From: a virus
Reading direction: 5' to 3' (one strand)
Length of the DNA: 32,126 bases
IMG/VR virus record: IMGVR_UViG_3300010392_000092
Location: 1 to 32,126 of that record
In this document: one piece after another, positions 1,855-30,806 of the stretch
Layout of the letters: each line of letters starts with the position of its first letter
Position numbering within the stretch: the stretch's first letter is position 1
The notes under the pieces: model-generated
Database searches by the model: none
What the model was told of the DNA's origin: nothing
The model's input: the letters and a program-made list of their open reading frames with translations, nothing else
Translations under genes and position numbers: made by a program

Positions 1855-4800
1855 ATGAGTGATGATGAGATAGTCCCCTCGAGCGGGAAGAGGAAGTTCG
1901 GGGGGCCATTGCCGAATGAGTGGCCGATGATCGAGCCGACCGGGGAGACGAGGATCGCGATAGTCGGGGATCTTCCGAGTAAGGATGAGGATTGGTATGG
2001 CAAGCTGTTCATAGGTGAGACCGGGAAGCTTCTTGAATCGGGTTTAGGTAAAGTGGGGCTCGTTAGATCGCAATGCCTCCTCTGTAATGTTTCGTGGGTG
2101 CGCCCTGCGAGTGGATTGTTCGAGGACTTGAATTGGGAGGACAATGAGATTCAATGTGGTTTAGCTCATCTCGAAGAGGACTTGGAGAAGTTCGATCCGA
2201 CTATCGTGCTCTGTCTAGGTAATGAAGCTTTGCACGTCATGAAGAGGGGGAACGTGGATCCGTGGGGCTTTGCCAAGTTGAGTATCCACCATTGGAGAGG
2301 CACGCTCTTCGAGAGCACATTCAGGCCGGGGCAGAAGTGTCTCGCAACGTTCCATCCGAAGACGATTCTGAGGGACTTTAGCGAGCAGATGTATTTCCAG
2401 TTCGATATGGAGAAGCTTAAGGCCGAGAGCAAGACGCGAGAACTCGTGCTGCCGAAAAGAGATGTTGTCGTCCTTCGAACTCGGGAAGAGGTTGCGGAGA
2501 AGCTGAAGGAGATTCACGCGAATTGGACTTACTGCTCTCTCGATATCGAGGGTTGGATGAACAATATCACTGCCGTCTCCTTTTCTCAGAGTGCCTACAA
2601 GGCTTACGTCGTGCCCTTTGCACACAATGACGGCTCGAACTATTGGAGTGAGGAAGATGAGTATGTGGCTTGGGAGCATATCCGTTACGTAGTCGAGGAT
2701 GAACGAATTCATATGATCGCGCAAAACGGATCTTACGATTTCCACGCTCTGGCGTTTGGGCTCGGAATCTGCGTTCAAGGCTACACGGAGGACACCCTCC
2801 TAGGTTGGTGGGAACTTTACCCTGAGATGAAGAAAGGCCTTAGCACGCAGGCTTCGATCCTGACAAATGAGCCTTACTACAAGCCGGAGAAGAGCAAGGG
2901 AAGTTTGAAGTTTGCGGATGATGAAGCTTTCTGGGAATACAACGGTGTCGATGCTGCCGTTACCTACGAGTGCTGGGAGAAGCAGCAAGCTAGGATGACA
3001 GAACAGCAAAAGAAACATTATCGTTTCAACATGGATCTACAAGCGGGCCCCGTCCTCTACATGATGTTGCGAGGGATCCTCTTCGACGTAGGAAGAGCTA
3101 AGGCCGAGCAGAACAGAGCCAACGACGAGATCGCGAAGCTTCAACGCTTAATCGATGTGGAGAGCGGGATTACCTTTAACTGTGAGACTAAGAAGAATGA
3201 CTTCGAGGACGTTCTCGAGATTGTGAAGAAGAACTTCTGCTCGAAGAAGATGAAGAAGAAAGCCACCGTGACCCTCGAGAGATGGCAACCCATGAAGCAC
3301 AACGGGAAGAGGTGGGTGCGCGGCGGGAAGCTAACACTAGAGCATCCAGAGGTAGCAGAGATTCTCAGTGGGGTGCTCGATGAGAAGCTCGAGGGACTTC
3401 GCTATCTGCCTATGCCAGTCACGAAGGAGAAGCTCGTTGACGCGGAGCCTGCCCGCCTGAGTGAGTGCGAGGAGTTCATACTCAAGTCAAAGCGAGAAGA
3501 CTGGATCGAAGTTAAGAAGTTGATCGCGGAGATCCGTAAAGATGGCGTGAGCGAGGCACTACTCGGGAAGCTGAGTCAAGCGTTAGGCGTCGCGGTGAAC
3601 GTAGGGTCTACGCAACAGGACGGAGATGCCCAGACGTTTCTCTATACTGTCTGCGAATTGCCCCGGGTGCTCGTCAATGATCGAGGACAGTTCTCCTTCG
3701 AAGAAGAGAAGGACCGCGTGCGGCGCGTAGCGGGTGAGGGGACTACGAATTACCCCGGGAAGAAGGTCGTGTCGAGTATGCAAGCTCTTGCTAAGCTCTA
3801 CGCGAAGACGGAGGACGTGAGGGCCTTGTGGTGCCTACAGATTCGCAGACTTCGGAAGATCTCGAGTGACTTGAATGTGAAGCTTGACGAGGATCAACGA
3901 GCCAGGGCTTCGATCTCTCTCGTGAAGGAGACGGGGAGAATGGCTGAGAGCAAGACTCCGACCGGGACCGGGATGAACCGTCAGGCTTTGAACAAGGATT
4001 TGCGGAGGGTCTGTGTCGCAGACCCTGGTAGGTCTCTCTATCAGTTCGACCTCGAGGGTGCGGACAACTGGACAGTTGCAGCGGAGTGTGCTAGGTTAGG
4101 GGATGCCACGATGCTACATGACCTTGAAGCAGGTCTCAAACCTGCCAAGATTCTGTCCCTCATCGTTCATCTTGGACCCGAGAAAGTGCAAGGCATGACG
4201 AGGGACGAGATCAAACGCTCCTTGAAAGAGCTAGCGGGCGAGATGCCTAAGTGGCTCTACCCTGCCTGTAAAGCCGCGGTGCATGGGTGCGTGACGGGTG
4301 ATCATGAGGTTCTTACGCCGGGGGGTTGGGTAAGGTTGGATGAGTATCAGATAGGGACTCCTATCATGATCTACGATCTGCATACGAGATTCAGTTCTTT
4401 CGAAGTGCCAGAAGACGTTTACCAAGGCGAACACAAGGGGAAAATGTATCGGTTGAGAGGGAATAGTTTATCGCAAATCGTTACACCTTGTCATACACTG
4501 CCTTACACCACAAATGGGAACGCAAAACATAAGACTGCGGAAGAGTTGCACGGATTCAAAGGTGCTTCCTTGCCGATGTCGAGCTGTTACACTGGAGGTA
4601 AAGAGAAGGAGCATGTTCAACTCATCGCCGCGTTCCAAGCAGACGGAACGATAAGTCACAAGCAGGTGGTTTGGCATTTCAAGAAACAACGTAAGATCTT
4701 GAGAATTCAAGAACTGCTACGCGAGGCGAATATACCTTACAGGATAACGCTTAACAAGGACGGCACGACAACCATTGCGACGAAAGGTGATGTGGCTCAA

Positions 4801-5787
4801 ACGTGGCACCCTTACAAACAGGCAGGTGCGTATCTACTGACGTGGAACGTCCAATCGTTGGAGTTATTTTTGACGGAACATGCTCATTGGGACGGTCATC
4901 GGACAGATGTTAACTCTTTTGAGGTCTCTGCGGTTAACAGAGAGCACTTGGATTGGTTAGCCACGGTGAGTAAACTAGTGATGCGAAGCTACACTTGGAA
5001 TGATGTAAGAACGAGTGGTTACGGGTCGACAGTGCATTCGATTAAGTTTAACTCTCGAAGCTACGCGGATTTAGATTCTCTCTACGAGTTCTCAGAGAGT
5101 GCTAAACGTGATCATAAGGTTTACTGTCCTGTCACCTCGACAGGTTTCTTCATGGTCAGACATAACGGCAAGATCAGTATTACCGGGAACTCTAGTTATG
5201 GAATGGGCTGGAAGGTTATGACCGAGACAGTCCTCAAACACTCCCTCCACACGCTACCTCTGGAGCTGGCTTCGGCATCACCTCTCACCCTCAAGAAGAA
5301 GGATGTCGAGGCACTCCAGAAAGCGTTCTTCTCCCGCTGGGAGGGCGTGAAGAAGTGGCAGAACCATGTGAGTGACGCCCTGCTTAACCAAGGGTGGCTC
5401 GATACTGGTGTTGGGCACCGTCGATTGTTCCAAGGGCGGAAGGCCGAGTGGCGTCAGGGTGTTAAGCAGGCTAACAACTCAACATTGAAGGAGGCCCTCT
5501 CGAGTATGCCTCAGTTCTTCACAACCTATTTCACCAAGCTGGCACTCTTCAATCTATGGTTCGACGAAGAGAACGTGAGAGAGGGCGGCGAGATGCGTCT
5601 TGAGCCTATCCTATGTGTCCATGATTCGCTGCTAGCTCAAGCTCGAGATGAGGATGAAGCTTGGGCGAAAGTCGCGATCAAGAAGTATTTCAAGAACAAG
5701 GTGGAGATCGCTGGTCAGTTGATCGAGATACCTGCCGAGGGCACGATAGGCTCCGATTGGGGCATGGAAGACGAGGTGCTGATATGA
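1855..5787 (+). CDS. polA: Family A DNA polymerase with N-terminal UDG-like domain, intein-containing precursor
   Basis: This 1310-residue precursor is the replicative polymerase. Residues 30-195 resemble uracil-DNA glycosylase family 4/5 (GDLPSKDED at 38-46, LFIGETG at 51-57, HPKT at 167-170), but the Fe-S cysteine pattern is incomplete and motif 1 is unusual. The 3'-5' exonuclease is intact: D230 and E232 (SLDIE), N291 and D295 (NGSYD), Y362 and D366 (YNGVD). Polymerase motif A is FDLEGAD with D732, motif B is K806 through Y1115-G1116, and motif C is H1256-D1257. An intein (residues 812-1112) splits motif B, so the mature enzyme would be about 1009 residues. A UDG-like domain fused to PolA is, from memory, also seen in SPO1-type phages. 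ATG 1855 follows an AGGA-like site. The stop overlaps the next small gene as ATGA. Confidence 0.95.
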   Translation: MSDDEIVPSSGKRKFGGPLPNEWPMIEPTGETRIAIVGDLPSKDEDWYGKLFIGETGKLLESGLGKVGLVRSQCLLCNVSWVRPASGLFEDLNWEDNEIQCGLAHLEEDLEKFDPTIVLCLGNEALHVMKRGNVDPWGFAKLSIHHWRGTLFESTFRPGQKCLATFHPKTILRDFSEQMYFQFDMEKLKAESKTRELVLPKRDVVVLRTREEVAEKLKEIHANWTYCSLDIEGWMNNITAVSFSQSAYKAYVVPFAHNDGSNYWSEEDEYVAWEHIRYVVEDERIHMIAQNGSYDFHALAFGLGICVQGYTEDTLLGWWELYPEMKKGLSTQASILTNEPYYKPEKSKGSLKFADDEAFWEYNGVDAAVTYECWEKQQARMTEQQKKHYRFNMDLQAGPVLYMMLRGILFDVGRAKAEQNRANDEIAKLQRLIDVESGITFNCETKKNDFEDVLEIVKKNFCSKKMKKKATVTLERWQPMKHNGKRWVRGGKLTLEHPEVAEILSGVLDEKLEGLRYLPMPVTKEKLVDAEPARLSECEEFILKSKREDWIEVKKLIAEIRKDGVSEALLGKLSQALGVAVNVGSTQQDGDAQTFLYTVCELPRVLVNDRGQFSFEEEKDRVRRVAGEGTTNYPGKKVVSSMQALAKLYAKTEDVRALWCLQIRRLRKISSDLNVKLDEDQRARASISLVKETGRMAESKTPTGTGMNRQALNKDLRRVCVADPGRSLYQFDLEGADNWTVAAECARLGDATMLHDLEAGLKPAKILSLIVHLGPEKVQGMTRDEIKRSLKELAGEMPKWLYPACKAAVHGCVTGDHEVLTPGGWVRLDEYQIGTPIMIYDLHTRFSSFEVPEDVYQGEHKGKMYRLRGNSLSQIVTPCHTLPYTTNGNAKHKTAEELHGFKGASLPMSSCYTGGKEKEHVQLIAAFQADGTISHKQVVWHFKKQRKILRIQELLREANIPYRITLNKDGTTTIATKGDVAQTWHPYKQAGAYLLTWNVQSLELFLTEHAHWDGHRTDVNSFEVSAVNREHLDWLATVSKLVMRSYTWNDVRTSGYGSTVHSIKFNSRSYADLDSLYEFSESAKRDHKVYCPVTSTGFFMVRHNGKISITGNSSYGMGWKVMTETVLKHSLHTLPLELASASPLTLKKKDVEALQKAFFSRWEGVKKWQNHVSDALLNQGWLDTGVGHRRLFQGRKAEWRQGVKQANNSTLKEALSSMPQFFTTYFTKLALFNLWFDEENVREGGEMRLEPILCVHDSLLAQARDEDEAWAKVAIKKYFKNKVEIAGQLIEIPAEGTIGSDWGMEDEVLI
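4288..5190 (+). other. Intein in DNA polymerase motif B (with LAGLIDADG-like core)
   Basis: This in-frame 301-residue insertion starts at C812 (CVTGDHEVLTPGGW, block A) and ends at N1112, with S1113 as the +1 residue. Block B is IVTPCHTLP with the TxxH motif. Block F/G is VYCPVTSTGFFMVRHNG followed by ISITGN. Removing it joins KAAVHG to SSYGMG and restores a normal O-helix motif B, which fixes both borders. The centre carries LIAAFQADGTI and FLTEHAHWDGH, resembling the two LAGLIDADG motifs of DOD homing endonucleases, though it is compact. The penultimate residue is Gly rather than the usual His; such variants are known in phage inteins and may slow Asn cyclisation. Splicing is required for an active polymerase. 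Confidence 0.9.
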
Positions 5788-18539: not shown

Positions 18540-21233
18540 TTACGCTAAATAGTAGGATTGAACTCGGATAGTGAGATTGATCGTTCCGCCCGTCTTGTTT
18601 TCGATGGTCGTTTTGTTGCTGTTTCCAGCATCCGTATAGATGTTGATCTTTGACGCTGTGGTAGCTGTGATGCTCCAAGTTGAAAAGGGATCAGAGACCA
18701 ATACCGGAGCACCGTTCGTCCCCTGCAATGCGACGATCGCGCATTGGAGACCCGCCCCTTGAGAGTTAGTGACTGTGATGAACCCGCGAACCTGCGAGCC
18801 AAGAATGTTATCATTCAACACCCAAGTCGCATTGTCAGCAATGGCTCCAGTCTGGATAATCTCGTCGTAGCCGTGACCTGCCGTCCGCTGAAACGCGATG
18901 ACGCCATTCTTGACCACCCCGTTACCGTGTCGACGATGCAGCACGGTCGCACCGTCCCCTGCGGTGATCTCCTCAATGATGTCCGAGGCGGAATCACTCG
19001 GAGCGTGCGCCATTTGCGGAGCTGGTTTGCGAAGGACTGATACTGAGGTTGCAGTTGCGTCTAGGTCATTCGAACTGGCGTCTTTCCAATCTCCGTTTGA
19101 GGAGCGGATGTTTTCTGGGAGTAGAGCAACCACACACCCGATAGTTCTAAGGGTGGACCCGTTGGAGTAGGTTGTTGGCGTTGTTCCGGTCGCTACGAAC
19201 TCGACCCCGGTAGCGTTAGATCCTGCCCCGACGTTCGTAAAGTCATCTGCGCTTACGTAGGTATCAATTCGATATTTCTGTCCCACAGTCAACGTGCCGC
19301 TGGTCTGCGTAGTATTGTCTGCCCATTGGTCGTCTGTTTCGGGAGTGTTCCCATTTTCCGATAACGCGAGCACTTGAGCCGCAGTCAATTCACGGGCGTA
19401 AACAAGACCGCTATGGATGACGCCCTCCGAGTAACTATTTGCGGAAGGTTTAGAGTATCCAATCTGCAACGGCGTCGTTGTGTCGTGCATCGCTGTATAA
19501 ACGCCCGCTGAATTATCCGCGACAGTTTCCGCAACGCCATTGACGTAAATCTTAAAATCTGTGTATCCCGTTGCGTCGCCATCGTAGGTCGCTGCAACGT
19601 GGTAGGTTTGGCCTTCCACCAACGCTGTCGACCCCACCACGCCGATGTAGACGCCCACCGCATTATCATAGGTAACGAACCTCAGCTTGTTGTCTGAGTT
19701 ATCGACCCAAAACCGATATTCAAACGAGAAGTTGGCGTTGGCTTTCGCAACGATTTCAAAGTCAGAAGATAGCGAATCTGGACGGATGATCGCAGTCAAC
19801 GAAAAGGGACTGTCGTTTGTAGAATCTCCAAAAGATAACGATGCACTATCGCCACAGCTCAGAAGTGAGGACGCCCCGTCAAAGTATTCCCCATTCGCCG
19901 CTTGCCGTGCATTCGTCCGGTCGTTGACAAAGTCTTTTGTTTGTAGCCCCACGAACTCGTTGGTGGAGTCAACCCGCTCGTTGTTCGTGCCGGAGTCGCT
20001 GTAAGAGCCTGCGAAGGTGTTCGCCTCGATCAAGTTGTCTTGCGAGTTCGCATCCAACGACAAGCTGACAGGGGTAGCATTAGAGGCTGTATTGTCTCGG
20101 ATAGACGAACTTTGAAGTCCCTCAAAGCGCATCGCATATCCGGTTCCCGAGCTAGTGAACCTATTGCCCGAGATCAAACAGCCGGTGTAGACAGTCGAAG
20201 TAGTCCTTTTGAAATAGAGATCCTCGTCCGCCGAACTTGCCCCATCGTTGTTTTCGAAGAGGTTGTTGAGAATGCGAATCGCCTTGGCTGTGATCCCAGC
20301 GCCACTCGTAAAGTAGACCCCCTTCCCGTTGTTCGCGGTGAACTGATTATCCTCAATGGTGATGTCTTCAACAGCCCCGCTCCCAAACTGGACAGCCCCA
20401 TCACCACTACCTGCAACCGCAAAGTAACTATTGCGAATCCGGATACTAGAGTTGGCGTTTGAGGTCAAGATACCCGCATTATCGGCACTCGTGATGGAGA
20501 TCCGATCAATGTCCAACCCGATACAGTTATCGAGTAGAATCGCACCATTGTTATGCCCGCTGAACGAGCAATCTTGAACGTAGCCGTTCACGACACTTGC
20601 AAGCTGGACAGCGTATGTGCCGCCTGTGGCAGTGCCCTCTGTGAATCTTAGATGCTCGATCGAAACAGCCGTGCGATCAAGCGAGCCCCCTCCCAGCAAA
20701 GCCTTGAAGGCCACTCCTCCGGTTTCGTTGTCAATCACAGAACCGTGATCAGCCGTTGAAGTGTCCAGAGCCACAACCCCTTGCATCCGGATACCCTCCG
20801 CGAGGTCAATGGTGGTTTCGATGCTGTAAGTCCCGAGCGGGAAGAACACAATACCTCCGTTACCGGCAGCAGTTGCTTCGTCGACGGCAGCTTGAATAGC
20901 TGTGCTGTCATCCGTGATTCCATCACCAACAGCCCCAAAGCTCTTGACATTGTAGATACCACTCCCCGCACCGCTCGCGGCACCACCGAAAGCGGTCAAC
21001 AACCAGCGACCACTCCAGGTAGTGTCGTTAGCCTGGAGCACTTCGTATCCATCATCAGCAGCCGAACTAGTTGCGTCGAACTTGTAGATTCTCCCGTCGT
21101 CTGCCGTGCCGATGATGGCGTGCGACTTATCGACAGGGCGGGGGATCTGTTTGACTTGAGTTTCGTTGCTCGCCTCGTAGAAAGAGGGAATTTTATACTC
21201 CCTAACGGAAGTTCCTGATCGAGTTAAAGGCAT
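18540..21233 (-). CDS. Tailspike: beta-helix plus LamG-like domain
   Basis: This 897-residue protein is built in four parts. Residues 1-90 form a likely virion-binding head. Residues 93-430 start with YNVKSFGAVGDGITDDSTAI and AAVDEA, the hallmark of the Pectate_lyase_3 beta-helix used by tailspikes and depolymerases, and continue with repeated strands (IRIRNSYF, ITIEDNQFTAN, IRILNNLFENN). Residues of about 450-640 (YFDGASSLLSCGDSASLSFG, then FEIVAKANANFSFEY and IYVNGVAETVADNSAG) form a LamG/concanavalin-like jelly roll. The last 230 residues are beta-rich, perhaps a trimerisation or second binding domain. It is probably the main host-recognition protein; enzyme activity is not provable from sequence alone. 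Confidence 0.85.
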   Translation of the reverse strand: MPLTRSGTSVREYKIPSFYEASNETQVKQIPRPVDKSHAIIGTADDGRIYKFDATSSAADDGYEVLQANDTTWSGRWLLTAFGGAASGAGSGIYNVKSFGAVGDGITDDSTAIQAAVDEATAAGNGGIVFFPLGTYSIETTIDLAEGIRMQGVVALDTSTADHGSVIDNETGGVAFKALLGGGSLDRTAVSIEHLRFTEGTATGGTYAVQLASVVNGYVQDCSFSGHNNGAILLDNCIGLDIDRISITSADNAGILTSNANSSIRIRNSYFAVAGSGDGAVQFGSGAVEDITIEDNQFTANNGKGVYFTSGAGITAKAIRILNNLFENNDGASSADEDLYFKRTTSTVYTGCLISGNRFTSSGTGYAMRFEGLQSSSIRDNTASNATPVSLSLDANSQDNLIEANTFAGSYSDSGTNNERVDSTNEFVGLQTKDFVNDRTNARQAANGEYFDGASSLLSCGDSASLSFGDSTNDSPFSLTAIIRPDSLSSDFEIVAKANANFSFEYRFWVDNSDNKLRFVTYDNAVGVYIGVVGSTALVEGQTYHVAATYDGDATGYTDFKIYVNGVAETVADNSAGVYTAMHDTTTPLQIGYSKPSANSYSEGVIHSGLVYARELTAAQVLALSENGNTPETDDQWADNTTQTSGTLTVGQKYRIDTYVSADDFTNVGAGSNATGVEFVATGTTPTTYSNGSTLRTIGCVVALLPENIRSSNGDWKDASSNDLDATATSVSVLRKPAPQMAHAPSDSASDIIEEITAGDGATVLHRRHGNGVVKNGVIAFQRTAGHGYDEIIQTGAIADNATWVLNDNILGSQVRGFITVTNSQGAGLQCAIVALQGTNGAPVLVSDPFSTWSITATTASKINIYTDAGNSNKTTIENKTGGTINLTIRVQSYYLA

Positions 21234-21234
21234 A

Positions 21235-21666
21235 TTACTTTAAGGGTGAGGCGTGGACTTGTCCGTCCGTGCCGTTATCGCGTATGAACTTGGCGGCAGT
21301 AGCGAGGTCTTTCGACCAAAGCTCTTGATAACCTACTTCGAGCGTATGCCCATGAGACGTAGTCGGTGCCGACCCGTCGAAGGTTACCCTTACCGCTTGA
21401 TCTTGAACCGATACATACACCTGTGTCGTATCAGCAGAGAAAGCCGAGAGCTGAACCCCTCCAGCGGTAGCATCCACGGTAAGTGTCTGTGAAGTATCCG
21501 AAGATGACAACGTTGCTAGAGCGGAAGAAGTCGAAGCAGTTAACTCTAGTTCGCCCAACGCTTGCAGCGTCAGTTTCATCACGTCGTCCTTGTTGTAAGC
21601 GGAGACGTTAGATTGGTTCATTCGCCCACCTAGAGCGAGAAGAGCCGCGTTATTGAATGTTGCCAT
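21235..21666 (-). CDS. Putative minor virion / decoration protein
   Basis: This 143-residue Ser/Thr/Ala-rich protein has a helical start (FNNAALLALGGRMNQS, residues 4-19; then MKLTLQALGELELTAST), followed by beta strands ending in a helix with AAKFIRDNGTDG. No family is recognised. It follows the capsid gene set and ends one base before the tailspike start, so it may be an adaptor for the tailspike or a decoration protein. The start ATG at 21666 comes directly after the U-tract of a terminator hairpin and has no Shine-Dalgarno site; an internal ATG at residue 16 is possible. Confidence 0.55.
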   Translation of the reverse strand: MATFNNAALLALGGRMNQSNVSAYNKDDVMKLTLQALGELELTASTSSALATLSSSDTSQTLTVDATAGGVQLSAFSADTTQVYVSVQDQAVRVTFDGSAPTTSHGHTLEVGYQELWSKDLATAAKFIRDNGTDGQVHASPLK

Positions 21667-23336: not shown

Positions 23337-23519
23337 ACTGACAAACAGTTAAGTTTACGAGACACAGCTACTCGAATCGCACTCGCGACTCGTCCGTGTC
23401 TCCTGTTTGTCCCCGGTCAACGGGACTATTCCGACCTGGTAAAGTGAGTTAACACTCGACGGAATAGCTCTTTGTCTTGCGACGGGCAGAGCCTGGCCCA
23501 TAGTAATCCGACCACTCGA
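23337..23519 (-). promoter_or_regulatory. Structured leader before the capsid gene
   Basis: This 183-base gap carries nested inverted repeats. Next to the capsid start, 23340-23348 pairs with 23403-23411 (9 bp) and continues as 23359-23365 with 23396-23402 (7 bp), with a 10-base bulge on one side only; the base of the stem lies 4 bases from the ATG. Further upstream in the transcript are CTATTCCG/CGGAATAG (23426-23433/23460-23467) enclosing GAGT/ACTC (23446-23449/23454-23457), and GGGC/GCCC (23484-23487/23496-23499). No clear -35/-10 pair or T-run is seen. It may be a processing, stabilising or translation-control element that isolates capsid expression from the island. Confidence 0.55.
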
Positions 23520-24029
23520 TTATCGCACAAGTTCGGGACGTGTCAACCACCAATCCTCAAACCCCCCATGCTCGCACTTCACGTCCATGTGACTTAACAC
23601 ATATCCCCGGTCCCGCAAAAACCTCCTCTGTTCTCCTCGATACTTATTTCCGTGCAGGTAAGCATCATGCTCCACCGTAATCGCCTCAAAGCGCACATAG
23701 CCCAGAATCCTCTCCATAACCCCCGTCGAATCCTCATCGCAATCCAGCGACAGGTAACCCAAGCTCTTCGTGGCAAACCCTTCAAAATGAGTCCCCCAGT
23801 CATAGCTCAGTCCGTCACACACGAAGAACTCACTGGTCCGCATCCTTTCATGCTCCTCCCGGTGCTCCTCGTCCTTGTCGAAGCATTGACCCTCCCAGCC
23901 CTTCAAATCGAGCAGGTAGGTGTTATTGTGAAAGATCGCCTGACTCGCACCCACATCGAGATACGTCCGACTCTCCTTCACGTTCTCGAGAGCCCACAAA
24001 TCCTGACCCACTTGACTATAACTCTTCAT
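23520..24029 (-). CDS. FkbM-like SAM-dependent methyltransferase
   Basis: This 169-residue protein starts SYSQVGQD, then TYLDVGASQAIFHNNTYLLD (residues 22-41) with the DVGA SAM-binding loop. LSLDCDED at 93-100 and ITVEHDAY at 117-124 follow, then a final RRFLRDRGYVLSH helix-strand. SQxGQD, DVGA, LSLD and a late EHD are the usual order in FkbM-type O-methyltransferases, which commonly methylate sugars or sugar-linked hydroxyls. It is short for the family (about 200-270 residues) but has all the main motifs. Its ATG overlaps the stop of the small membrane gene as ATGA. It is the last gene of the glycan island before the capsid leader. Confidence 0.75.
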   Translation of the reverse strand: MKSYSQVGQDLWALENVKESRTYLDVGASQAIFHNNTYLLDLKGWEGQCFDKDEEHREEHERMRTSEFFVCDGLSYDWGTHFEGFATKSLGYLSLDCDEDSTGVMERILGYVRFEAITVEHDAYLHGNKYRGEQRRFLRDRGYVLSHMDVKCEHGGFEDWWLTRPELVR

Positions 24030-24283
24030 GGGCTACTGTCCTTCGCTTTCTTCTTCTTCAGACTCTCGGCATAGATCTCCGTCATCTTCAAGGTCTCTCT
24101 CATCATCTCTAGCTCAGTCATAACGTGCATGTATGCCTGCCGGTAGCTCTCCGTCCGCTTCTCCGCCTCCGCTGTCAAAGAGGAAGAGCTTAAAGCCGTC
24201 AGGATCATCGAGAATAGAAAACCTACCACGAACGCCAACACAACAAGCAAGAACGTCTCGCTACTTCTTCTTGTAAACTCCAT
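24026..24283 (-). CDS. Small single-pass membrane protein with coiled coil
   Basis: The ATG at 24283 is chosen because it removes an Arg/Cys-rich leader that lies wholly opposite a real methyltransferase frame. The 85-residue product has a basic N-terminus, one membrane span (residues 10-30, ETFLLVVLAFVVGFLFSMIL) and a heptad-patterned tail (residues 38-80, EAEKRTESYRQAYMHVMTEL, then EMMRETLKM). It overlaps the methyltransferase upstream by 23 bases and the FkbM gene downstream by 4. Sitting between two methyltransferases, it could anchor the glycan enzymes at the inner membrane. Family unknown. Confidence 0.55.
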   Translation of the reverse strand: MEFTRRSSETFLLVVLAFVVGFLFSMILTALSSSSLTAEAEKRTESYRQAYMHVMTELEMMRETLKMTEIYAESLKKKKAKDSSP

Positions 24284-24908
24284 AGCAATGCGACTCACTC
24301 TCCTCAATCCTCGGCTCCTCGCAAAACTCGAGCAGCATTCTTTGAGCCTTCTTCGTCGACTCCCAGTTCGTATCGTCCATGAACACGGTAGCCCCACTTC
24401 GCACCAAAGGCAGATAAAGCTCCACGTCAGCACTTGAAGTCTCCTCCGAATGATTCCCGTCTATGTGGAGAAAATCGATAGGAGAGTCTTTCTTGTGCCA
24501 CTCTTGAAATCTAGGGTAAGCACTCACCGCTTTGGCTTTCAGAAGTTGCACCCTGTGCGTCAGGTTCAAGTAAGACCTTACGTCATAAACGCTCCGCTCA
24601 ATAGCTCCCATATTCACGCTATCCCACCACTCCTTGTTCGGATCATCCTTCTCGTAACCTTGCCCGCACGCCTCCGAACTCCAAGGATCTATCCCGTAAA
24701 CCTGCCCATTCGCCCCAATCTCCTCTAGTGCGGCACCCACCGCAAACAACGATCTACCAGCGAAGACCCCAATCTCAACTGAGATCACCGGCTTGTCCTC
24801 GAGCACCGTTTTTATAATGTCCCTCGCCTTGAAAGGATCACACCAACCGTGAATGGTCGGCATGAAAGTGTTCACGTAATGCTCTAATTTCTCACTCAAC
24901 GCTGTCAT
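24261..24908 (-). CDS. Class I SAM-dependent methyltransferase (Methyltransf_24-like)
   Basis: This 215-residue protein has a full Rossmann methyltransferase set: motif I VEIGVFAGRS (44-53), the acidic strand GIDPW (72-76), DFLHIDGNHSEE (145-156) and FMDDT (176-180). The DFLHIDGxH pattern is typical of Methyltransf_24/CmcI-like enzymes linked to sugar and antibiotic methylation, often metal-dependent O-methyltransferases. It lies 4 bases after the glycosyltransferase stop at 24913 and overlaps the membrane-protein gene. In this context a methyl group on a sugar or glycan end is the likely product. Confidence 0.85.
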   Translation of the reverse strand: MTALSEKLEHYVNTFMPTIHGWCDPFKARDIIKTVLEDKPVISVEIGVFAGRSLFAVGAALEEIGANGQVYGIDPWSSEACGQGYEKDDPNKEWWDSVNMGAIERSVYDVRSYLNLTHRVQLLKAKAVSAYPRFQEWHKKDSPIDFLHIDGNHSEETSSADVELYLPLVRSGATVFMDDTNWESTKKAQRMLLEFCEEPRIEESESHCYGVYKKK

Positions 24909-24912
24909 AATC

Positions 24913-25899
24913 TCACATCTCTCTCAAAGGTTGCCCGTCTCTCCAATCGTGTTGCGGTATCTTGATCACCGGAAACTTCCCCGTCGAAAGCACCAAATCC
25001 CGCAAACCTCTCAATCCCCCTGACCCCATGTAGTTCAAACTCTTCTTCCTTCGCCCTGTCCTCAGCCAATTCAGCATGACATGCGAGGCATCAGGCTTCC
25101 CCTTCAGTTCTTTGATAATACGCAGAAAAGGCTCCTCGTTCCCATGATCCTCTTCACTCTCGAGTGTCATCATCCTCGGGATGTAGTGAAGCTTAAACCC
25201 TTGCGCCACCAACATAATCCCCATCGCATAATCCTCGCCGCCCATAGAATCGTTATCCTCGTCCCAACCATTCACCTGCAAGATCGCATTCAAAGGAGCC
25301 CCGAAGCTACACCCGAAGGCCCAACCTCCATCACATCTCAAAGGATCCCAATGAGTGATCTTCTTCAACCTCGAGTCCACCCCGCCAGAAAACCCCTTCT
25401 CCATCCCCTCCAGAATACCCCTCCCCACATCCCCCGGTAAAGCCTTACTCAAAGCCTCCTCATCCAGTCCCTTAAAACCTCGTATCCTGCCCTCACTCAC
25501 CCTCAACTCCTTGACCTTCCCGTAACTCCCGCAAGCTACCCAGCCCTCAGCCCTAGCCCTCTCCACCTCTTTGAGCCACCCGGGCACCAAGACACTCAGA
25601 TCATCGACACACACTAGGTAGTCCCCCTTCGCCACACACACAGCCGTATTCCTCGCGTTAGCTGCCGCAAAATAATCCCTTGATGTTAGTCGATACTCCC
25701 CTTGCCAAACGCACGGTTTTGGTTTAACGTGAGTGACAGCTAGATCATCACGAAGATCAAGCTCTCGCAAACCTTTGTAGAAGTCCACCACAACGAGTTG
25801 GACCTCCTCATCTGAACCGTCCAGCTCCCTCTTCAGCGAATCGAGGAACCAGCGAATGTGGCAAACCTTCCGATTCGTCATGTAAGCGATCGTGATCAT
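24913..25899 (-). CDS. GT2-type glycosyltransferase
   Basis: The ATG at 25899 is chosen because it overlaps the upstream stop as ATGA and begins directly with the first strand of the fold (MITIAYMTNRKVCHIRWFLD). The 328-residue enzyme has the GT-A plan: an NTP-sugar binding start, ANARNTAVCVAKGDYLVCVDD (80-100) with the VDD metal/nucleotide site, an acceptor part with DGGWAFGCSFGAPL, and WDEDNDSMGGEDYAMG, whose E-D pair is the usual catalytic base position. It probably transfers a sugar from a nucleotide sugar in the cytoplasm; donor and acceptor are unknown. Methyltransferase genes flank it on both sides. Confidence 0.8.
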   Translation of the reverse strand: MITIAYMTNRKVCHIRWFLDSLKRELDGSDEEVQLVVVDFYKGLRELDLRDDLAVTHVKPKPCVWQGEYRLTSRDYFAAANARNTAVCVAKGDYLVCVDDLSVLVPGWLKEVERARAEGWVACGSYGKVKELRVSEGRIRGFKGLDEEALSKALPGDVGRGILEGMEKGFSGGVDSRLKKITHWDPLRCDGGWAFGCSFGAPLNAILQVNGWDEDNDSMGGEDYAMGIMLVAQGFKLHYIPRMMTLESEEDHGNEEPFLRIIKELKGKPDASHVMLNWLRTGRRKKSLNYMGSGGLRGLRDLVLSTGKFPVIKIPQHDWRDGQPLREM

Positions 25900-26486
25900 A
25901 ATCTCCTCAACCATCCCAGACCTGCATATGTAGGAGCCTCGAACCATTCCCAACCAGCACCCTGCTTCTCCAACCAAGCGAGCGCGGCTCTCCTAACGCC
26001 CTCAGTGCTCTTCGTATCATGCAGCCAGATCGTCCCCGAAGGTTTGATGAACGGACTCCACTTCTCCAGTTCCTTCCTCGTCTGCTCCTCCTCGTGTGAC
26101 GTATCAATGAGCAGGAAGTCAATCGGCTCTGTCCATCTAACTTCGATCGAGTCGCCCACGATATGACGCCAACAACCCCTCTCCCCTACTCTCCCAAGCC
26201 GCTCCTTCAAAGCCTCTTCGCAGGCAGCGTCGATATCCACCGAAGTGAAGACCCCGTTGTAACCGTAACAACGATTCAACTCGCAAATGGCAGAGAAAAG
26301 CGCAACAGAAGATTCCCCCTCCCGTGAACCTAGTTCCACCACATTCTCAATAGACGTCGTCTCGCCTCTCATCAGAACCTCGAAGTAGAGTATCGGAAGA
26401 AAGTAGCTAATATCACTGAACTTCAGAACTGCCTCACATAACTCCTCGTTCCCTTTGAAAGCGTTGTGGCAAGCCTCATAGTCCAT
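25896..26486 (-). CDS. Class I SAM-dependent methyltransferase (Methyltransf_24-like), second copy
   Basis: The ATG at 26486 is preceded by a strong GGAGGAGG site with 9 bases of spacing, so it is preferred over two starts further upstream. The 196-residue enzyme shows motif I VVELGSREGESS (49-60), SVDID (82-86), DFLLIDTSHEEE (123-134) and IWLHDT (153-158). It resembles the 24261-24908 methyltransferase in motif order but is clearly divergent. It overlaps the upstream glycosyltransferase end by 11 bases and the downstream one by 4, a tight operon. Sugar O-methylation is the likely job from context. Confidence 0.8.
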   Translation of the reverse strand: MDYEACHNAFKGNEELCEAVLKFSDISYFLPILYFEVLMRGETTSIENVVELGSREGESSVALFSAICELNRCYGYNGVFTSVDIDAACEEALKERLGRVGERGCWRHIVGDSIEVRWTEPIDFLLIDTSHEEEQTRKELEKWSPFIKPSGTIWLHDTKSTEGVRRAALAWLEKQGAGWEWFEAPTYAGLGWLRRL

Positions 26487-27564
26487 ACTCAACATCCTCC
26501 TCCAAGTATCTCGGGTTTGTCCACGAAGCATTGAAGATCTCGATCTTCTCCTCCCACCTCTTACCTTTCAAGTCATCGCTCAAACGCCTCAGATTCCTCC
26601 CCGATCCCGATACGTTAATCGGAGATCTCTTGTAATGCTTATCCTCACTCGCATAAGCGACTATGTCGTCATCAGGCAGCGCGGGGAAGATGAAATTGCA
26701 ATCCTCACACACCATCCAGGTTTTCCCGTTCTGCTCTACCTTACCCATACCTCCCTCACGTTTCGAGAAACACTCCACCCATTGCGGATGAGAGACAGCG
26801 CCTATCTCATTCACGGCCTTACTATGCGTAGCCTCACACCTCGCACACAGACTCTTGAAAGGTAGTTCCATCTCCCTCTTAGCCCTGTTCTGTAGACTCC
26901 CGTATTGGTGGTGAATTCGAAACATCTGATTCGGGATACGTTTACCCGAGTAACCCGCATGACCGCACCTAGCGTCATAATCGATGTCCTCCCAATGAAA
27001 GAAGTTGAACGAAACCTCGTTGAAACCATTCACATCCAACCAAAGCTCCCTAGACAAAGCATTATTGGCAAAGCAGTTACTCGGTGTCCTGAAGAATAGC
27101 TCAAACTTCTCAGGGTAATCCCCTACGTTCTCCCATTTAATCCGTGCCCTCTCCCTATCCCAAACGTCAGCACCCTCCGGTATCTCGTGAAAGTAGAAAT
27201 CTACGAAAGCTTCAGCCTTCTCAGCTAGCAACGTCGCCACGAAATCCGATTTAAGAAAACGCCATTCCGAGAATCGCACACATCTCTCTGCCTCACTCAT
27301 CACCCAGCCTGCATTGAACACCGAGCAATCCATGTAACGCTTCGCCACATGAGGAGCAGGGAAATGTGGCATGTGCAGAACTTCAAAGTCGCACTCACCC
27401 CTTAACTCTCTTACAGCCCCTTTCCTCGCTTGGTAATGATGATCCACCAAGATGACGTTAAAGTCCTTCCTTGTCTGCCGCTTCAAGGAGGCCAACATCA
27501 TACGCAGCATATCCTGGTTCTCGGACCAATCAGCAAGCGTCACAGCAAACGTTAAAGGAAGCAT
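26476..27564 (-). CDS. GT2-type glycosyltransferase with Cys4 C-terminal module
   Basis: This 362-residue enzyme starts LPLTFAVTLADWSENQDML, then SLKRQTRKDFNVILVDHHYQ (26-45), a GT2 entry. The usual acidic DxD site is replaced by a WRFLKSDF segment (101-108). The GT-A core ends with NGFNEVSFNFFHWEDIDYDA (179-198), with the conserved E-D at 192-193. Unusual for the family is a C-terminal addition with CARC (240-243) and CEDC (286-289), a plausible zinc-binding knuckle. It starts after a 3-base gap from the upstream GT25-like gene. The acceptor is unknown; the Cys module may bind a partner protein. Confidence 0.75.
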   Translation of the reverse strand: MLPLTFAVTLADWSENQDMLRMMLASLKRQTRKDFNVILVDHHYQARKGAVRELRGECDFEVLHMPHFPAPHVAKRYMDCSVFNAGWVMSEAERCVRFSEWRFLKSDFVATLLAEKAEAFVDFYFHEIPEGADVWDRERARIKWENVGDYPEKFELFFRTPSNCFANNALSRELWLDVNGFNEVSFNFFHWEDIDYDARCGHAGYSGKRIPNQMFRIHHQYGSLQNRAKREMELPFKSLCARCEATHSKAVNEIGAVSHPQWVECFSKREGGMGKVEQNGKTWMVCEDCNFIFPALPDDDIVAYASEDKHYKRSPINVSGSGRNLRRLSDDLKGKRWEEKIEIFNASWTNPRYLEEDVEYGL

Positions 27565-27567
27565 AGG

Positions 27568-28209
27568 TTATTCAGGTATCCTCGTGTCCAACTGCGTTGC
27601 CAACCTCGGAAACACCGCGTAACTATTCAAAGCTCTCGTCCCCCTCCTCGACCTGTCCTGGTGCATCGAAAGATCGATCGGCGCCCACACCCTCTCACAC
27701 CTCTCAAGCAACACCGGCAATGCCTTCCCCCTTACCACATACGCGTGAAGACAACTCGCGGAAGGCACACTATAAAGCCCCCCACCCAGCAACGAGTCAG
27801 GTCCCGCAAAATGCCGACAGTTGCAAGACCCCAGGTAAAGGAGATCCCAATCATCCGGCAGAAACTCCAGCACGGCTCCCAAGCTCTCAGCCCAGTCCTC
27901 CTCAAATCTCACGTCTTGCTCCATGATCAGATGCCCCGTGTAAGGCGTCTCCGACAACACATTCAACGCCGCCCACAGCATGTAGTGCGAGAGATGAATG
28001 TTGATCGTTTTCGGCAACAAATGCCGATGCGTAGCATGATCATCCAGATCATACGGATGCAGGGTATGGCAGATCCCTGACACCTCGTGATCGAGCCCGT
28101 AGAAAAGTTTGAACCTCACCTCCCTTTCATCCAGGTGCTCATGCGTTTTGTCCAACCCCGCCGAGAACCTCGTCGAGATCAAATGAGATGTCCACTCCTC
28201 GGGTATCAA
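27568..28209 (-). CDS. GT25-like glycosyltransferase
   Basis: The proposed start is TTG at 28209, overlapping the upstream stop as TTGA, like other overlaps in this cluster; a GTG at 28260 with a GAGGA site 7 bases before it would add 17 residues and cannot be excluded. The roughly 213-residue product opens with a first strand SHLISTRF, then HLSHYMLWAALNVL (72-85) and LIMEQDVRFEEDW (94-106), followed by LPDDWDLLYLG. The SHYMLW helix, the EQDV acidic site and DWDLLYLG match GT25-type glycosyltransferases, which include LPS galactosyl- and collagen-type transferases. It is paired with another GT25 gene upstream. Confidence 0.75.
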   Translation of the reverse strand: MIPEEWTSHLISTRFSAGLDKTHEHLDEREVRFKLFYGLDHEVSGICHTLHPYDLDDHATHRHLLPKTINIHLSHYMLWAALNVLSETPYTGHLIMEQDVRFEEDWAESLGAVLEFLPDDWDLLYLGSCNCRHFAGPDSLLGGGLYSVPSASCLHAYVVRGKALPVLLERCERVWAPIDLSMHQDRSRRGTRALNSYAVFPRLATQLDTRIPE

Positions 28210-28883
28210 TTCTGTTGCTCGCTTTCCGCCTTCGGGGCATCCCCCACCGTCGAAGCCCACTCACTGATCCTCGTCTTCTGACTAGCCAGGTAGGGCCAAG
28301 CCAAGTAGTGACTCACGAAGGGATAGACCTTCATCATCAACGACGTATCAAACGGCTTATCGATCGGCTTCAACAGTTCAATCGCCTTCTTCGCCGCGCT
28401 CCTCTTCCACCAGATGCACGCGGTGCAATAGGGATACTTATCCGTCCTCGCCAAACCCTCCGCAACCTTATGCAACTCCCCTGTCCTCTCCGGATTGTAA
28501 TCACCGCCCAACCCATCGCCCCCGAAGTAATACTCGAGTTGCACCACTTCCGCGTCCTCCGGCAACCTCCCCCTCAACTGCCGCCACTTCTCCGAGAACC
28601 CCGGCAAAAACTTCACATCATCCTCGCAGATAATGAACTCGTCCCACTCAAAGGCTAACGCCGTCCTCAGTGCCACCAGGTGACTCAAGTAGCAACCTAC
28701 TTGACTCGCATGGATATACTTCCCCCGCCCTTGCTCATCATCCTCGAAAGGGTTCGTAGGTCTCAGCCCAACCACAGGCCCGTAGATGCCATCCACAAAC
28801 AGCACATCCAGGCCCTCTTTCAAAAAGTGCTTCTCAGCTTGTTGCTTCTTCCACGGCTCTTCCGGCAACACGATACAAAGCAT
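28206..28883 (-). CDS. GT25-like glycosyltransferase
   Basis: The ATG at 28883 follows a GAGGAG site with 9 bases of spacing and begins at the first strand of the fold (MLCIVLPEEPW), so it is preferred over the ATG at 28910. The 225-residue enzyme has FVDGIYG, then SQVGCYLSHLVALRTAL (60-76), the G-C-x-x-SH helix that defines GT25, and FIICEDDVKFLPGF (83-96) with the EDD nucleotide-sugar site. It ends with hydrophobic strands and a polar tail. It resembles its downstream neighbour in plan, suggesting an old duplication, though identity is low. Confidence 0.85.
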   Translation of the reverse strand: MLCIVLPEEPWKKQQAEKHFLKEGLDVLFVDGIYGPVVGLRPTNPFEDDEQGRGKYIHASQVGCYLSHLVALRTALAFEWDEFIICEDDVKFLPGFSEKWRQLRGRLPEDAEVVQLEYYFGGDGLGGDYNPERTGELHKVAEGLARTDKYPYCTACIWWKRSAAKKAIELLKPIDKPFDTSLMMKVYPFVSHYLAWPYLASQKTRISEWASTVGDAPKAESEQQN

Positions 28884-28911
28884 CTTCGGTAACTCCTCTT
28901 CGACTCTCATA

Positions 28912-29145
28912 TTAAAACAACTCTAGTATCTTACTCGCTTTATCCGAATGAGGCACAATCTCTCGATCAAGTCCTCCGTCCACAAACTCCTCATGTATCT
29001 CCCTCACCGACACATACCCCGCCCAGATCGAATCACTCCCCAAATTAACAGCCTCTACTGCCACCTCTTCACAAGGAGCCATCACTATCGCGTTCCTCTC
29101 CTCAACCCGAACAGGCGTTGTCGCAATCAACCAGAAATACTTCAT
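28912..29145 (-). CDS. Small hypothetical protein of the glycan island
   Basis: This 77-residue acidic protein starts KYFWLIATTPVRVEERNAIV and is probably an alpha/beta fold. Its ATG overlaps the stop of the large glycosyltransferase as ATGA, and it ends just before the next gene, so it is almost certainly expressed with them. No family is recognised and no Cys or membrane motif is present. It could be a small partner of one of the flanking glycosyltransferases. Confidence 0.55.
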   Translation of the reverse strand: MKYFWLIATTPVRVEERNAIVMAPCEEVAVEAVNLGSDSIWAGYVSVREIHEEFVDGGLDREIVPHSDKASKILELF

Positions 29146-30806
29146 ACTCGTTCCAATCTCTTCATTAAGTCCTTATTCGGAATCTTGATCCACCCACACT
29201 GCTCGTCGTTCACCCCGAACGTCACCAGATGCACCCCCTCCTCGTAAACATGCCCCTCGGGGAAGATCACCAACGGACTTTCCCAGGCCCTGAAATCTCT
29301 CTCGCTCCCCACCAACAGCGGCACACTCGTCATCCGCTTCACTTCAAACGGCGCTTTCGCCTCGAACGTGTAAGCCCCCATGTAATACCTTCTCTTCGGC
29401 CCCCTCCACTGCAAAGCCGAATGGAAGAAACTCAAATACTCGTCATCGTTCAACCTCACCGGCGGCGACCCCCCTCGGATATCCCCGAAGTCCCACTTCA
29501 TCCGGTGCTTCCCTTTCCAATGCCTCTGAACCCTCAACCGCTCGTCAAGTCGAAACACCATTTGAGGCGAAGGTGAATACACACAGTGCCACAGCCCATC
29601 ATGCACAAACCACTGCCAATTCTTCTCATGCCCACTCGCCGCCTCGGGCCTCGGATGATTTCCCCCGAACTCCGGCTCAACGATCACGTCAAACTTTTCC
29701 AAATCCCAATCCAACTTTGTCAATGCCTGCCGTATCTTCCAATCCTTCGTTCTCACCCAAGTAGCAAACCCCACATAGACCTCACCATCATGCACAATCG
29801 CTCTAGGATCCTCCCACTGCTCATTCACATGCCTCTTCGGCTCAACGGGAATCATATTAGTGCTCTTCACACTCATCGTCCTCTCATCGATCTCCCACAC
29901 CACAAGCCGACTCTTCTTGTCCGTCGTCTGCTCACCTTCAATCCTCCCGACCCCATATTGAAACTGCCTCGTAAAAAGCTGCAACTTCCCCCTCGCCCTC
30001 GCGAGCCCAGGATTAAAGTAACACCCGTTCTCTAAAAACGGAAACGCGAACATCCCGCAATCCCACTCCGTCTGCTCCAGATAACTCGGATAGAAGTTCT
30101 TCGCAATAGCCTCATCGACATCACTCACTTCCCTCTTCCCTTGCAACACCTCCTGAACCATCCCGTGACACCCTCGCAGCAAAACCGCGTCAGGGTATCG
30201 TTGCTCGATCTTACTTAACCGAAACGTATCACTCTGCGTTGTCAACACGTAGTTACTCTCACACGTATTAGGCAACGCCTCTAGCCCCGCGATTCTATCG
30301 AACGGCGCATTCGTCACATACAAAGTCCCCCCTTGCAGAAACCTCGTCACATGCGTAGGCCAAACACCACACCGATCCATAAAAGGACTTACCGTAGGCC
30401 CCCTGTAGACATACCCGCAGAAAGGCTTCCCCCCTTCTTGCCAAACCTTCTTAATTGTCTTCAGCCACCCACTTCTCAAAGGACACGCATCCTGTTCCCA
30501 CCAGAACCACCCCTTATAACTCTTCGCGAAGTTCGCCTCAACATACCTCGCGCTTTGCTGCCACACCCGATTCTCCCCCACCGGATATTCCTTCACCCCC
30601 GCTATTGAGTTCCTCTTCATCGTGAAGACACTCACGAAGCTCTCTCTCGCCTTCTTCGCAAGCTCCGAGATCCTCACCTCCCCGTCATGCGTGATCAACA
30701 TCGAGAACCCCGTCCCCTTCGGGTCAAGGTGCTTCACCAAGTCGAGGTTTGTTTCGAACAAGCTCTCATTCCTCGCTGAGAGCGGCACGACAACAAGCAA
30801 TTCCAC
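29142..30806 (-). CDS. Glycosyltransferase (GT-A) fused to GH130-like beta-propeller
   Basis: The start is GTG at 30806, overlapping the stop of the scaffold-like gene as TAGTG. Residues 1-235 are GT-A-like: ELLVVVPLSARNESLFETNL, then GWFWWEQDACPLRSGWL (99-115), where EQD takes the place of the DxD site. Residues 255-554 look like a five-bladed propeller of the GH130 type: FNPGLARARGKLQLFTR (264-280), WEDPRAIVHDGEVYVGFATW (331-350), HEKNW (393-397), GGSPPV (445-450), FFHSAL (460-465), YYMGAYTFEA and FPEGHVYEEG. EDPR and EKNW are conserved in GH130 phosphorylases/mannosidases. The enzyme could build and then trim or phosphorolyse a glycan; activity is not proven. Confidence 0.75.
   Translation of the reverse strand: MELLVVVPLSARNESLFETNLDLVKHLDPKGTGFSMLITHDGEVRISELAKKARESFVSVFTMKRNSIAGVKEYPVGENRVWQQSARYVEANFAKSYKGWFWWEQDACPLRSGWLKTIKKVWQEGGKPFCGYVYRGPTVSPFMDRCGVWPTHVTRFLQGGTLYVTNAPFDRIAGLEALPNTCESNYVLTTQSDTFRLSKIEQRYPDAVLLRGCHGMVQEVLQGKREVSDVDEAIAKNFYPSYLEQTEWDCGMFAFPFLENGCYFNPGLARARGKLQLFTRQFQYGVGRIEGEQTTDKKSRLVVWEIDERTMSVKSTNMIPVEPKRHVNEQWEDPRAIVHDGEVYVGFATWVRTKDWKIRQALTKLDWDLEKFDVIVEPEFGGNHPRPEAASGHEKNWQWFVHDGLWHCVYSPSPQMVFRLDERLRVQRHWKGKHRMKWDFGDIRGGSPPVRLNDDEYLSFFHSALQWRGPKRRYYMGAYTFEAKAPFEVKRMTSVPLLVGSERDFRAWESPLVIFPEGHVYEEGVHLVTFGVNDEQCGWIKIPNKDLMKRLERV

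Follow-up and report, generated by a model that had tools for sequence, protein, structure and literature searches.

A putative virion-glycosylation cassette between the scaffold-like and probable capsid genes of an uncultured tailed-phage lineage

The serotype-converting gtr clusters of temperate phages consist of a membrane glycosyltransferase (GT), a flippase and a bactoprenol GT. Few phages, mainly mycobacteriophages, are known to have glycosylated virions. The mycobacteriophages modify capsid and tail tube with transferases of their own (PMC12363180, citing Freeman 2023; PMC12619734). The chlorovirus PBCV-1 likewise uses its own GTs and methyltransferases to build methyl-capped glycans on its capsid (PMC9614988). 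Here, we describe a block of ten genes at positions 23520–30806 (minus strand) of IMG/VR record IMGVR_UViG_3300010392_000092, a virus sequence of 32,126 bp that is referred to below as the window. The block lies between a scaffold-like gene and the probable major capsid protein (MCP) gene. On balance, it appears to be a virion-glycosylation cassette that occupies a cargo slot between these two genes and would place a putative methylated O-glycan on a virion protein.

The ten open reading frames (ORFs), named G1 to G10 from the scaffold side, run without interruption from position 30806 down to 23520 and are joined by short overlaps or gaps of at most 4 bp (Table 1). The scaffold-like gene overlaps G1 by 1 bp, G1 and G2 share a 4-bp ATGA, G3 and G4 share a TTGA, and ATGA junctions recur between G6 and G7 and between G9 and G10; the remaining junctions are 1–4 bp gaps or short overlaps. 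The likely true starts, read from the sequence, differ from those of the longest ORFs for G4 (TTG, about 28209), G6 (ATG, 26486), G7 (ATG, 25899) and G9 (ATG, 24283). An earlier note on this DNA had listed ten tightly packed minus-strand genes between scaffold and capsid genes; all of the ORFs, the tight junctions and the location were found in the window, and the enzyme families given below agree with those that the note named. Eight of the genes encode enzymes, namely five transferases and three methyltransferases, and one of the transferases, G1, also carries a GH130-like domain. Hydropathy analysis gave no transmembrane segment in any of the enzymes, and the only strongly hydrophobic segment of the block belongs to G9. 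The genes are not chance ORFs, since independent contigs carry them at the same slot and their reading frames are conserved.

Family assignments were judged against the Pfam cut-offs of 24 bits for GT25 (PF01755), 26.3 for Methyltransf_24 (PF13578), 26 for GH130 (PF04041) and 22.7 for FkbM (PF05050). G3 scores 37.2 bits against GT25, and its matches among PDB profiles are mimivirus R655 (E 3.5e-6) and procollagen galactosyltransferase (E 0.01). G4 reaches 17.4 bits, under the cut-off, and its orthologue in L003 reaches 26.1 bits, over it (L003, L036, G007 and the like are labels of the relative contigs or stretches compared); G4 matches the same two PDB profiles, R655 at E 1.4e-5 and procollagen galactosyltransferase at E 6e-5. 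The acidic metal-binding motif of the GT25 genes is seen as EDD, EED or EQD. By profile score and acidic motif, G3 itself and G4, through its L003 orthologue, can be placed in the GT25 family. G6 (60.8 bits) and G8 (75.6 bits) both exceed the Methyltransf_24 cut-off, and G8 also has an RMNT_CmcI match of 26.6 bits, over its cut-off, and matches the PDB profiles of O-methyltransferases (E 8e-6). For G7, a weak GT2 match in Pfam is accompanied by a PDB profile match to chondroitin synthase (E 0.004) and by VDDLSVL and GEDY motifs that are conserved in three viruses. G5 has only weak GT7C and GT2 matches in Pfam, and its W-E-D-I-D-Y motif is retained in the L003 orthologue (58% identity).

The fusion of a GT-A domain to a GH130-like domain in G1 is an unusual enzyme architecture. 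AlphaFold modelled the first ~125 residues mostly at predicted local distance difference test (pLDDT) values of 80–95, and the Foldseek matches of this part are GT-A enzymes; it is conserved in L018, as a stand-alone gene, and in L019. The GH130 part scores 23.4 bits in Pfam (E 3e-5), with just residues 443–552 covered, and matches GH130 mannoside phosphorylases among the PDB profiles (E 0.003); its EDPR motif is conserved in three viruses. The propeller is also matched by Foldseek to 1vkd, from a model of low confidence past residue 230, and such matches are weak evidence because the AlphaFold model is good in the GT-A part only. A protein of an uncultured Caudovirales phage (A0A6J5KNP8, 624 aa) aligns over the whole G1 model. 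G10 had no Pfam match, and its L003 orthologue gave a weak FkbM/Methyltransf_21 match (13.1 bits, E 0.1, under 22.7). Profile searches found no family match for G2, and no orthologue of G9 was found in L003 or L005.

Table 1. Genes and other features in and around the block between the scaffold-like and probable capsid genes (window coordinates).
Feature	Coordinates	Strand	Basis or remarks
Scaffold-like protein, 393 aa	30806..31987	-	After portal-like gene; acidic coiled composition; homologues at same place in L014 (53%), L005 (33%), L018 (23%)
G1, N-terminal GT-A domain fused to GH130-like propeller	29142..30806	-	AlphaFold/Foldseek, Pfam, PDB profiles
G2, 77-aa unknown	28912..29145	-	Orthologue at same place in L003, 46% identical; no family match
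G3, GT25 glycosyltransferase	28206..28910	-	Pfam GT25 over cut-off; PDB profiles
G4, second GT25-like glycosyltransferase	27568..28209	-	TTG start overlaps G3 stop; GT25 profile, PDB profiles
G5, GT2/GT7C-like glycosyltransferase with C-terminal CxxC..CxxC segment	26476..27564	-	Weak GT7C/GT2 matches
G6, Methyltransf_24 S-adenosylmethionine (SAM) methyltransferase	25896..26486	-	Pfam over cut-off
G7, GT2-like glycosyltransferase	24913..25899	-	Weak GT2 matches; PDB profile; motifs
G8, Methyltransf_24/RMNT_CmcI-type O-methyltransferase	24261..24908	-	Pfam over cut-off; PDB profile
G9, 85 aa, single predicted transmembrane segment	24026..24283	-	Hydropathy maximum 2.81, residues 11-29
G10, short FkbM-like methyltransferase	23520..24029	-	SYSQxGQD...LDxGA...GWEG pattern
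Intergenic region, island to MCP	23337..23519	-	Conserved RNA hairpin ending beside MCP start codon
Probable major capsid protein, 401 aa	22131..23336	-	Gene order portal-scaffold-(island)-MCP, kept to 27% identity (L037/L038)

The distance from the scaffold gene to the MCP gene is 328–338, 1166, 3316, 7469 (window) or 7862 bp in the viruses compared. The slot holds 8–10 genes in the window's own clade. The block is found at the same place in L003 (MCP 93% identical to that of the window) and L005 (82%); in L004 (93%), G10 lies directly before the MCP gene at the point where the contig begins, and in L014, G1 (68%) immediately follows the scaffold gene. In L003, G9 is missing, and the block includes an additional GT2-like gene and an additional methyltransferase-like gene. 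G2, G5 and G6 are missing from L005, which carries two paralogous GT2-like genes and has a changed gene order. A metallophosphatase-like gene (L005:8224-9111) is also present there, between a methyltransferase and the G10 homologue.

More distant relatives carry other contents. The L018 slot (MCP 60%) has a 64-aa ORF and one stand-alone GT-A gene, whose product is homologous to the G1 N-terminal domain (31% identity across 179 aa). G007 (MCP 46%) carries a GT-A protein whose C-terminal domain is a different one, along with a possible second transferase and two small ORFs, one of them Cys-rich. The same slot also contains an HNH-like ORF on the opposite strand, possibly a homing element (L028:733-1356, minus). 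L036, a contig from a Verrucomicrobia metagenome-assembled genome (MAG) (MCP 64%), has five GT- or methyltransferase-like ORFs before the MCP gene, none of them similar by BLAST to the island genes of the window; one of the five matches Methyltransf_24 at 27.0 bits, just over the cut-off. The second transferase and HNH-like ORF of G007 and the transferases of L036 were assigned by eye. In the two outgroups, L037 and L038 (MCP 27%, portal 25–26%), the slot is empty, and the MCP gene starts 338 and 328 bp, respectively, after a scaffold-like gene, with no gene between. The earlier note had regarded the block as an addition to the usual scaffold–capsid order, and this comparison of presence and absence among relatives, a check that the note had itself suggested, agrees with it. 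Methyltransf_24 and GT2 profile matches were confined to the slot in the genomes searched.

Since relatives hold graded and differing contents at the same place, the slot is, on this comparison, real and old, and its content turns over. An MCP tree splits L037 and L038 from the rest with full support and leaves the order of L036, L018 and L028 unresolved, so the direction of cassette growth inside the island-bearing clade is unproven. The cassette may have grown from a single GT-A gene.

The portal, scaffold and MCP were named by gene order and conservation rather than by fold. Pfam and PHROGs did not recognise the MCP, PDB profile searches returned chance matches only, and an AlphaFold model built with five relatives reached a pLDDT of 28.6; the identity of the capsid protein is therefore taken from position and conservation. 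The portal had no naming match in Pfam, PHROG or PDB profiles.

The wider genome is represented by a sister contig of the same virus, IMGVR_UViG_3300027790_000003 (54,618 bp), which is 99.9% identical to the window at the nucleotide level (14.7 kb compared) and 99.5–100% identical in the proteins of the island and head genes. Its ends share an exact 127-bp overlap (L007:1-327 with L008:18001-18618) that joins one pentapeptide-protein frame, the continuity of the frame being arithmetic on coordinates. Because of this overlap, the contig is probably a circularly complete genome of 54,491 bp. An exact 127-bp end overlap is also found in G007 (about 55.2–55.3 kb; L028 with L029), probably another complete circular assembly.

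Between the island and the MCP gene lie 183 bp that are structured and conserved. In the last ~90 nt before the MCP start (23337–23426, minus strand), a long hairpin is predicted in the window, L003 (7040-7133), L004 (618-711) and L005 (9928-10003), with z scores of −4.8, −4.3, −5.5 and −3.0, respectively. Four positions have two-sided compensatory changes, a consistent signal from the few (four) sequences compared. Rfam gave no match for the hairpin. A weaker stem near the MCP start codon is also seen in L036 and L018 (z about −2), and the empty-slot L037 is without one. The coding-strand GC skew also changes sharply, at about position 23340 of the window and within 10–27 kb of the sister contig: it is about 0.3–0.45 over the terminase, portal, scaffold and island genes (0.37 in G10), then 0.03 in the MCP gene and about 0.03 from there onward. 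The 183-bp region may thus be the border of two expression segments. The earlier note had seen the island as one unit with the head genes. This holds on the scaffold side, where the genes overlap, but is countered on the MCP side by the structured region and the change in skew.

Our current thinking is that the cassette acts directly on the virion. Because the enzymes are soluble and lie in the late stretch with the terminase, portal and scaffold genes, their synthesis would take place in the cytoplasm during head and tail assembly. A GT25 enzyme or G1, with its old GT-A domain, may start the glycan with a sugar taken from a host nucleotide sugar and attached to Ser, Thr or a similar residue of a virion protein, after which the other GT25 and the GT2 enzymes would extend the chain. 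The GH130-like domain of G1 might add, move or trim a mannose-type residue, and the three methyltransferases would cap the sugars. Related viruses of the lineage would then display different methyl-capped glycans, since slot contents are swapped while the capsid protein changes slowly.

Direct cytoplasmic glycosylation followed by methylation is suggested because the enzymes are soluble, the cassette is part of a late stretch next to the gene for the probable capsid protein, and no lipid-carrier, flippase, polymerase or lipid-linked GT match was found in the ORFs scanned. A virion protein as the acceptor is weakly supported by the same absences and by the nearest solved relatives of both GT25 proteins, which are R655 and the protein-directed procollagen galactosyltransferase. 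Ser and Thr make up 20–24% of a 409-aa protein with a short collagen-like stretch, a 143-aa protein and the spike, compared with 13% of the MCP, so fibres and decoration proteins stay acceptor candidates beside the capsid. Residues 641–698 of the spike, an 897-aa beta-helix protein (18540-21233, minus), are 60% identical to a segment of L003 (11518-11691) that lies inside the region matching the window's 409-aa protein, which suggests domain exchange between fibre proteins.

A broader and decidedly more tentative proposal is that the lineage uses the scaffold–capsid junction specifically for exchanging virion-glycan cassettes, which would make it a “phage serotype locus”. The ancestral state would be a GT-A gene beside that of the capsid. 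One branch would have added the GH130 domain together with more transferases and methyltransferases, a second would have acquired another fused domain, and a third would have received an unrelated set of enzymes. Related phages whose capsid proteins are almost identical would thereby wear different methyl-capped sugar coats, and the conserved RNA hairpin would set capsid translation apart from the cassette.

Several observations weigh against virion glycosylation. The GH130 assignment of G1 and the FkbM assignment of G10 are under the curated cut-offs, and G9, as a membrane protein, is easier to reconcile with an envelope target. The structured 183-bp region and the break in GC skew part the island from the MCP gene, which makes co-expression with the capsid uncertain. 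Island proteins diverge between the window and L003/L004 much like tail proteins (46–71% versus 46–80% identity). Rapid sequence divergence of the island is thus not supported; there is no sign of exceptional diversification at the sequence level, and the turnover is in gene content.

The main competing explanation, which we consider unlikely but still the strongest of its kind, is that the enzymes remodel the host surface late in infection, altering lipopolysaccharide, capsule or S-layer glycans and so blocking superinfection or the sticking of progeny to debris. Bacterial surface-glycan loci typically contain GT25, GT2 and FkbM enzymes, and G9 would suit such a role. O-chain modification is also the function favoured by the authors for the glycosyltransferase-rich island of pelagimyophages (PMC7029224). 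However, neither gtrA nor gtrB, nor any flippase, polymerase or lipid-carrier transferase was matched among the scanned ORFs of the 54.5-kb genome, and G9 has no detectable orthologue in L003 and L005. In addition, wherever the sequence of an island carrier covers both flanks, the cassette adjoins the probable capsid gene, and it shares its late stretch with the terminase, portal and scaffold genes. A third possibility, a passenger cluster of host-derived surface-glycan genes with no fixed role that is tolerated at a permissive site, is improbable. The slot contents do differ between relatives, and the HNH-like ORF of G007 (assigned by eye) and the metallophosphatase-like gene of L005 sit in the slot as well. 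However, G1, G3, G4, G7, G8 and G10 are kept down to ~35–50% identity, their frames are intact and most of them retain catalytic motifs, and GT-type genes are found in the slot of every island carrier, which argues for selection for function.

Least probable of all is DNA hypermodification, in which the transferases would glycosylate modified phage bases to evade restriction. Phage GTs can glycosylate DNA (Pyle 2024, as cited in PMC12619734), some PHROG matches are labelled “glucosyltransferase” and “DNA methyltransferase”, and a C5-cytosine methylase is encoded in the part of the genome beyond the window, which had raised the idea. It was rejected. The earlier note had seen no hypermodification genes, and a search of the 54.5-kb circular genome and relatives bears this out, with no thymidylate synthase or hydroxymethylase (PF00303) and no TET/JBP dioxygenase (Tet_JBP); DNA glycosylation is unlikely for this reason. 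Six other records that were examined (mostly island carriers, some partial) lack the C5 methylase, and the Methyltransf_24 proteins match O-methyltransferases.

The virus appears to belong to an uncultured tailed-phage lineage. Within the collection searched, none of the cultured phages was similar to it in MCP, TerL or G1. Among 50,697 phage records, no relatives of G1, MCP, TerL or G5 were found, and G3 and G8 had matches of just 26–27% identity; a pattern scan for G1 in one genome each of 84,980 cellular species gave zero matches. The sole hint of a host is the MCP relative L036, assigned to a Verrucomicrobia MAG at a coverage of 0.12, and the binning may be wrong. The sister genome encodes terminase-like, primase-like, Sak4-like and exonuclease-like proteins and a uracil-glycosylase/PolA fusion as well as the C5 methylase. 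The fusion, a DNA polymerase A of 1310 aa (1855-5787, plus) with the uracil-DNA-glycosylase domain at its N-terminus, contains an internal intein-like insert with a weak LAGLIDADG match and has a full-length relative in L010 (66% identical). The early region of the sister genome encodes a PAPS-reductase-like protein (L007:4201-5046, minus; PHROG 424, E 3.6e-51). A tRNA-Arg called by ARAGORN at 21389–21470 was treated as false, as it lies inside a coding gene and has no Rfam confirmation.

Among known systems, the serotype-converting gtr clusters share with the window the carriage of GTs by a phage. However, gtr-type genes (the GtrA flippase and GtrB bactoprenol glucosyltransferase) had no Pfam match in the ORFs scanned, and the block's sole membrane protein has 85 aa and one segment. 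The host recognition cluster of pelagimyophages is similar as a variable glycosyltransferase island inside the structural region, but it is 44.6 kb in size, includes tail fibres and lies between VrlC and gp14 of T4-like phages (PMC7029224), whereas the window's island of ~7.5 kb is without tail fibres and lies between scaffold and capsid genes. In PBCV-1 (A064R, A061L, A111/114R), the glycan on the major capsid protein is built by viral GTs and capped by viral SAM methyltransferases (PMC9614988), but PBCV-1 is a eukaryotic double-stranded DNA virus with N-glycans, and the window represents a phage with a compact one-slot cassette and a different enzyme set.

The mycobacteriophages (Che8 gp110, Corndog gp38, Myrna) also encode their own glycosyltransferases. 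They have few transferases, in contrast to the five transferases, three methyltransferases and GH130-like domain of this one cassette. Their enzymes have been shown to modify capsid and tail-tube proteins (PMC12363180, PMC12619734), whereas the acceptor in the window's lineage, which has no detectable relatives among cultured phages, is a putative one. The cassette is a candidate virion-glycosylating system, and the soluble phage-encoded glycosyltransferases that such systems have are predicted in G1, G3, G4, G5 and G7. Slots that are empty, hold one transferase or hold a whole set of transferases and methyltransferases form a graded series in this lineage, in which the origin and change of viral glycan coats could be followed; what selects for sugar coats on environmental phages also becomes testable by comparing relatives. 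In its anatomy, the cassette seems to resemble the mycobacteriophage and PBCV-1 systems, and it differs from them in its number of enzymes, its fixed slot and its graded presence among relatives.

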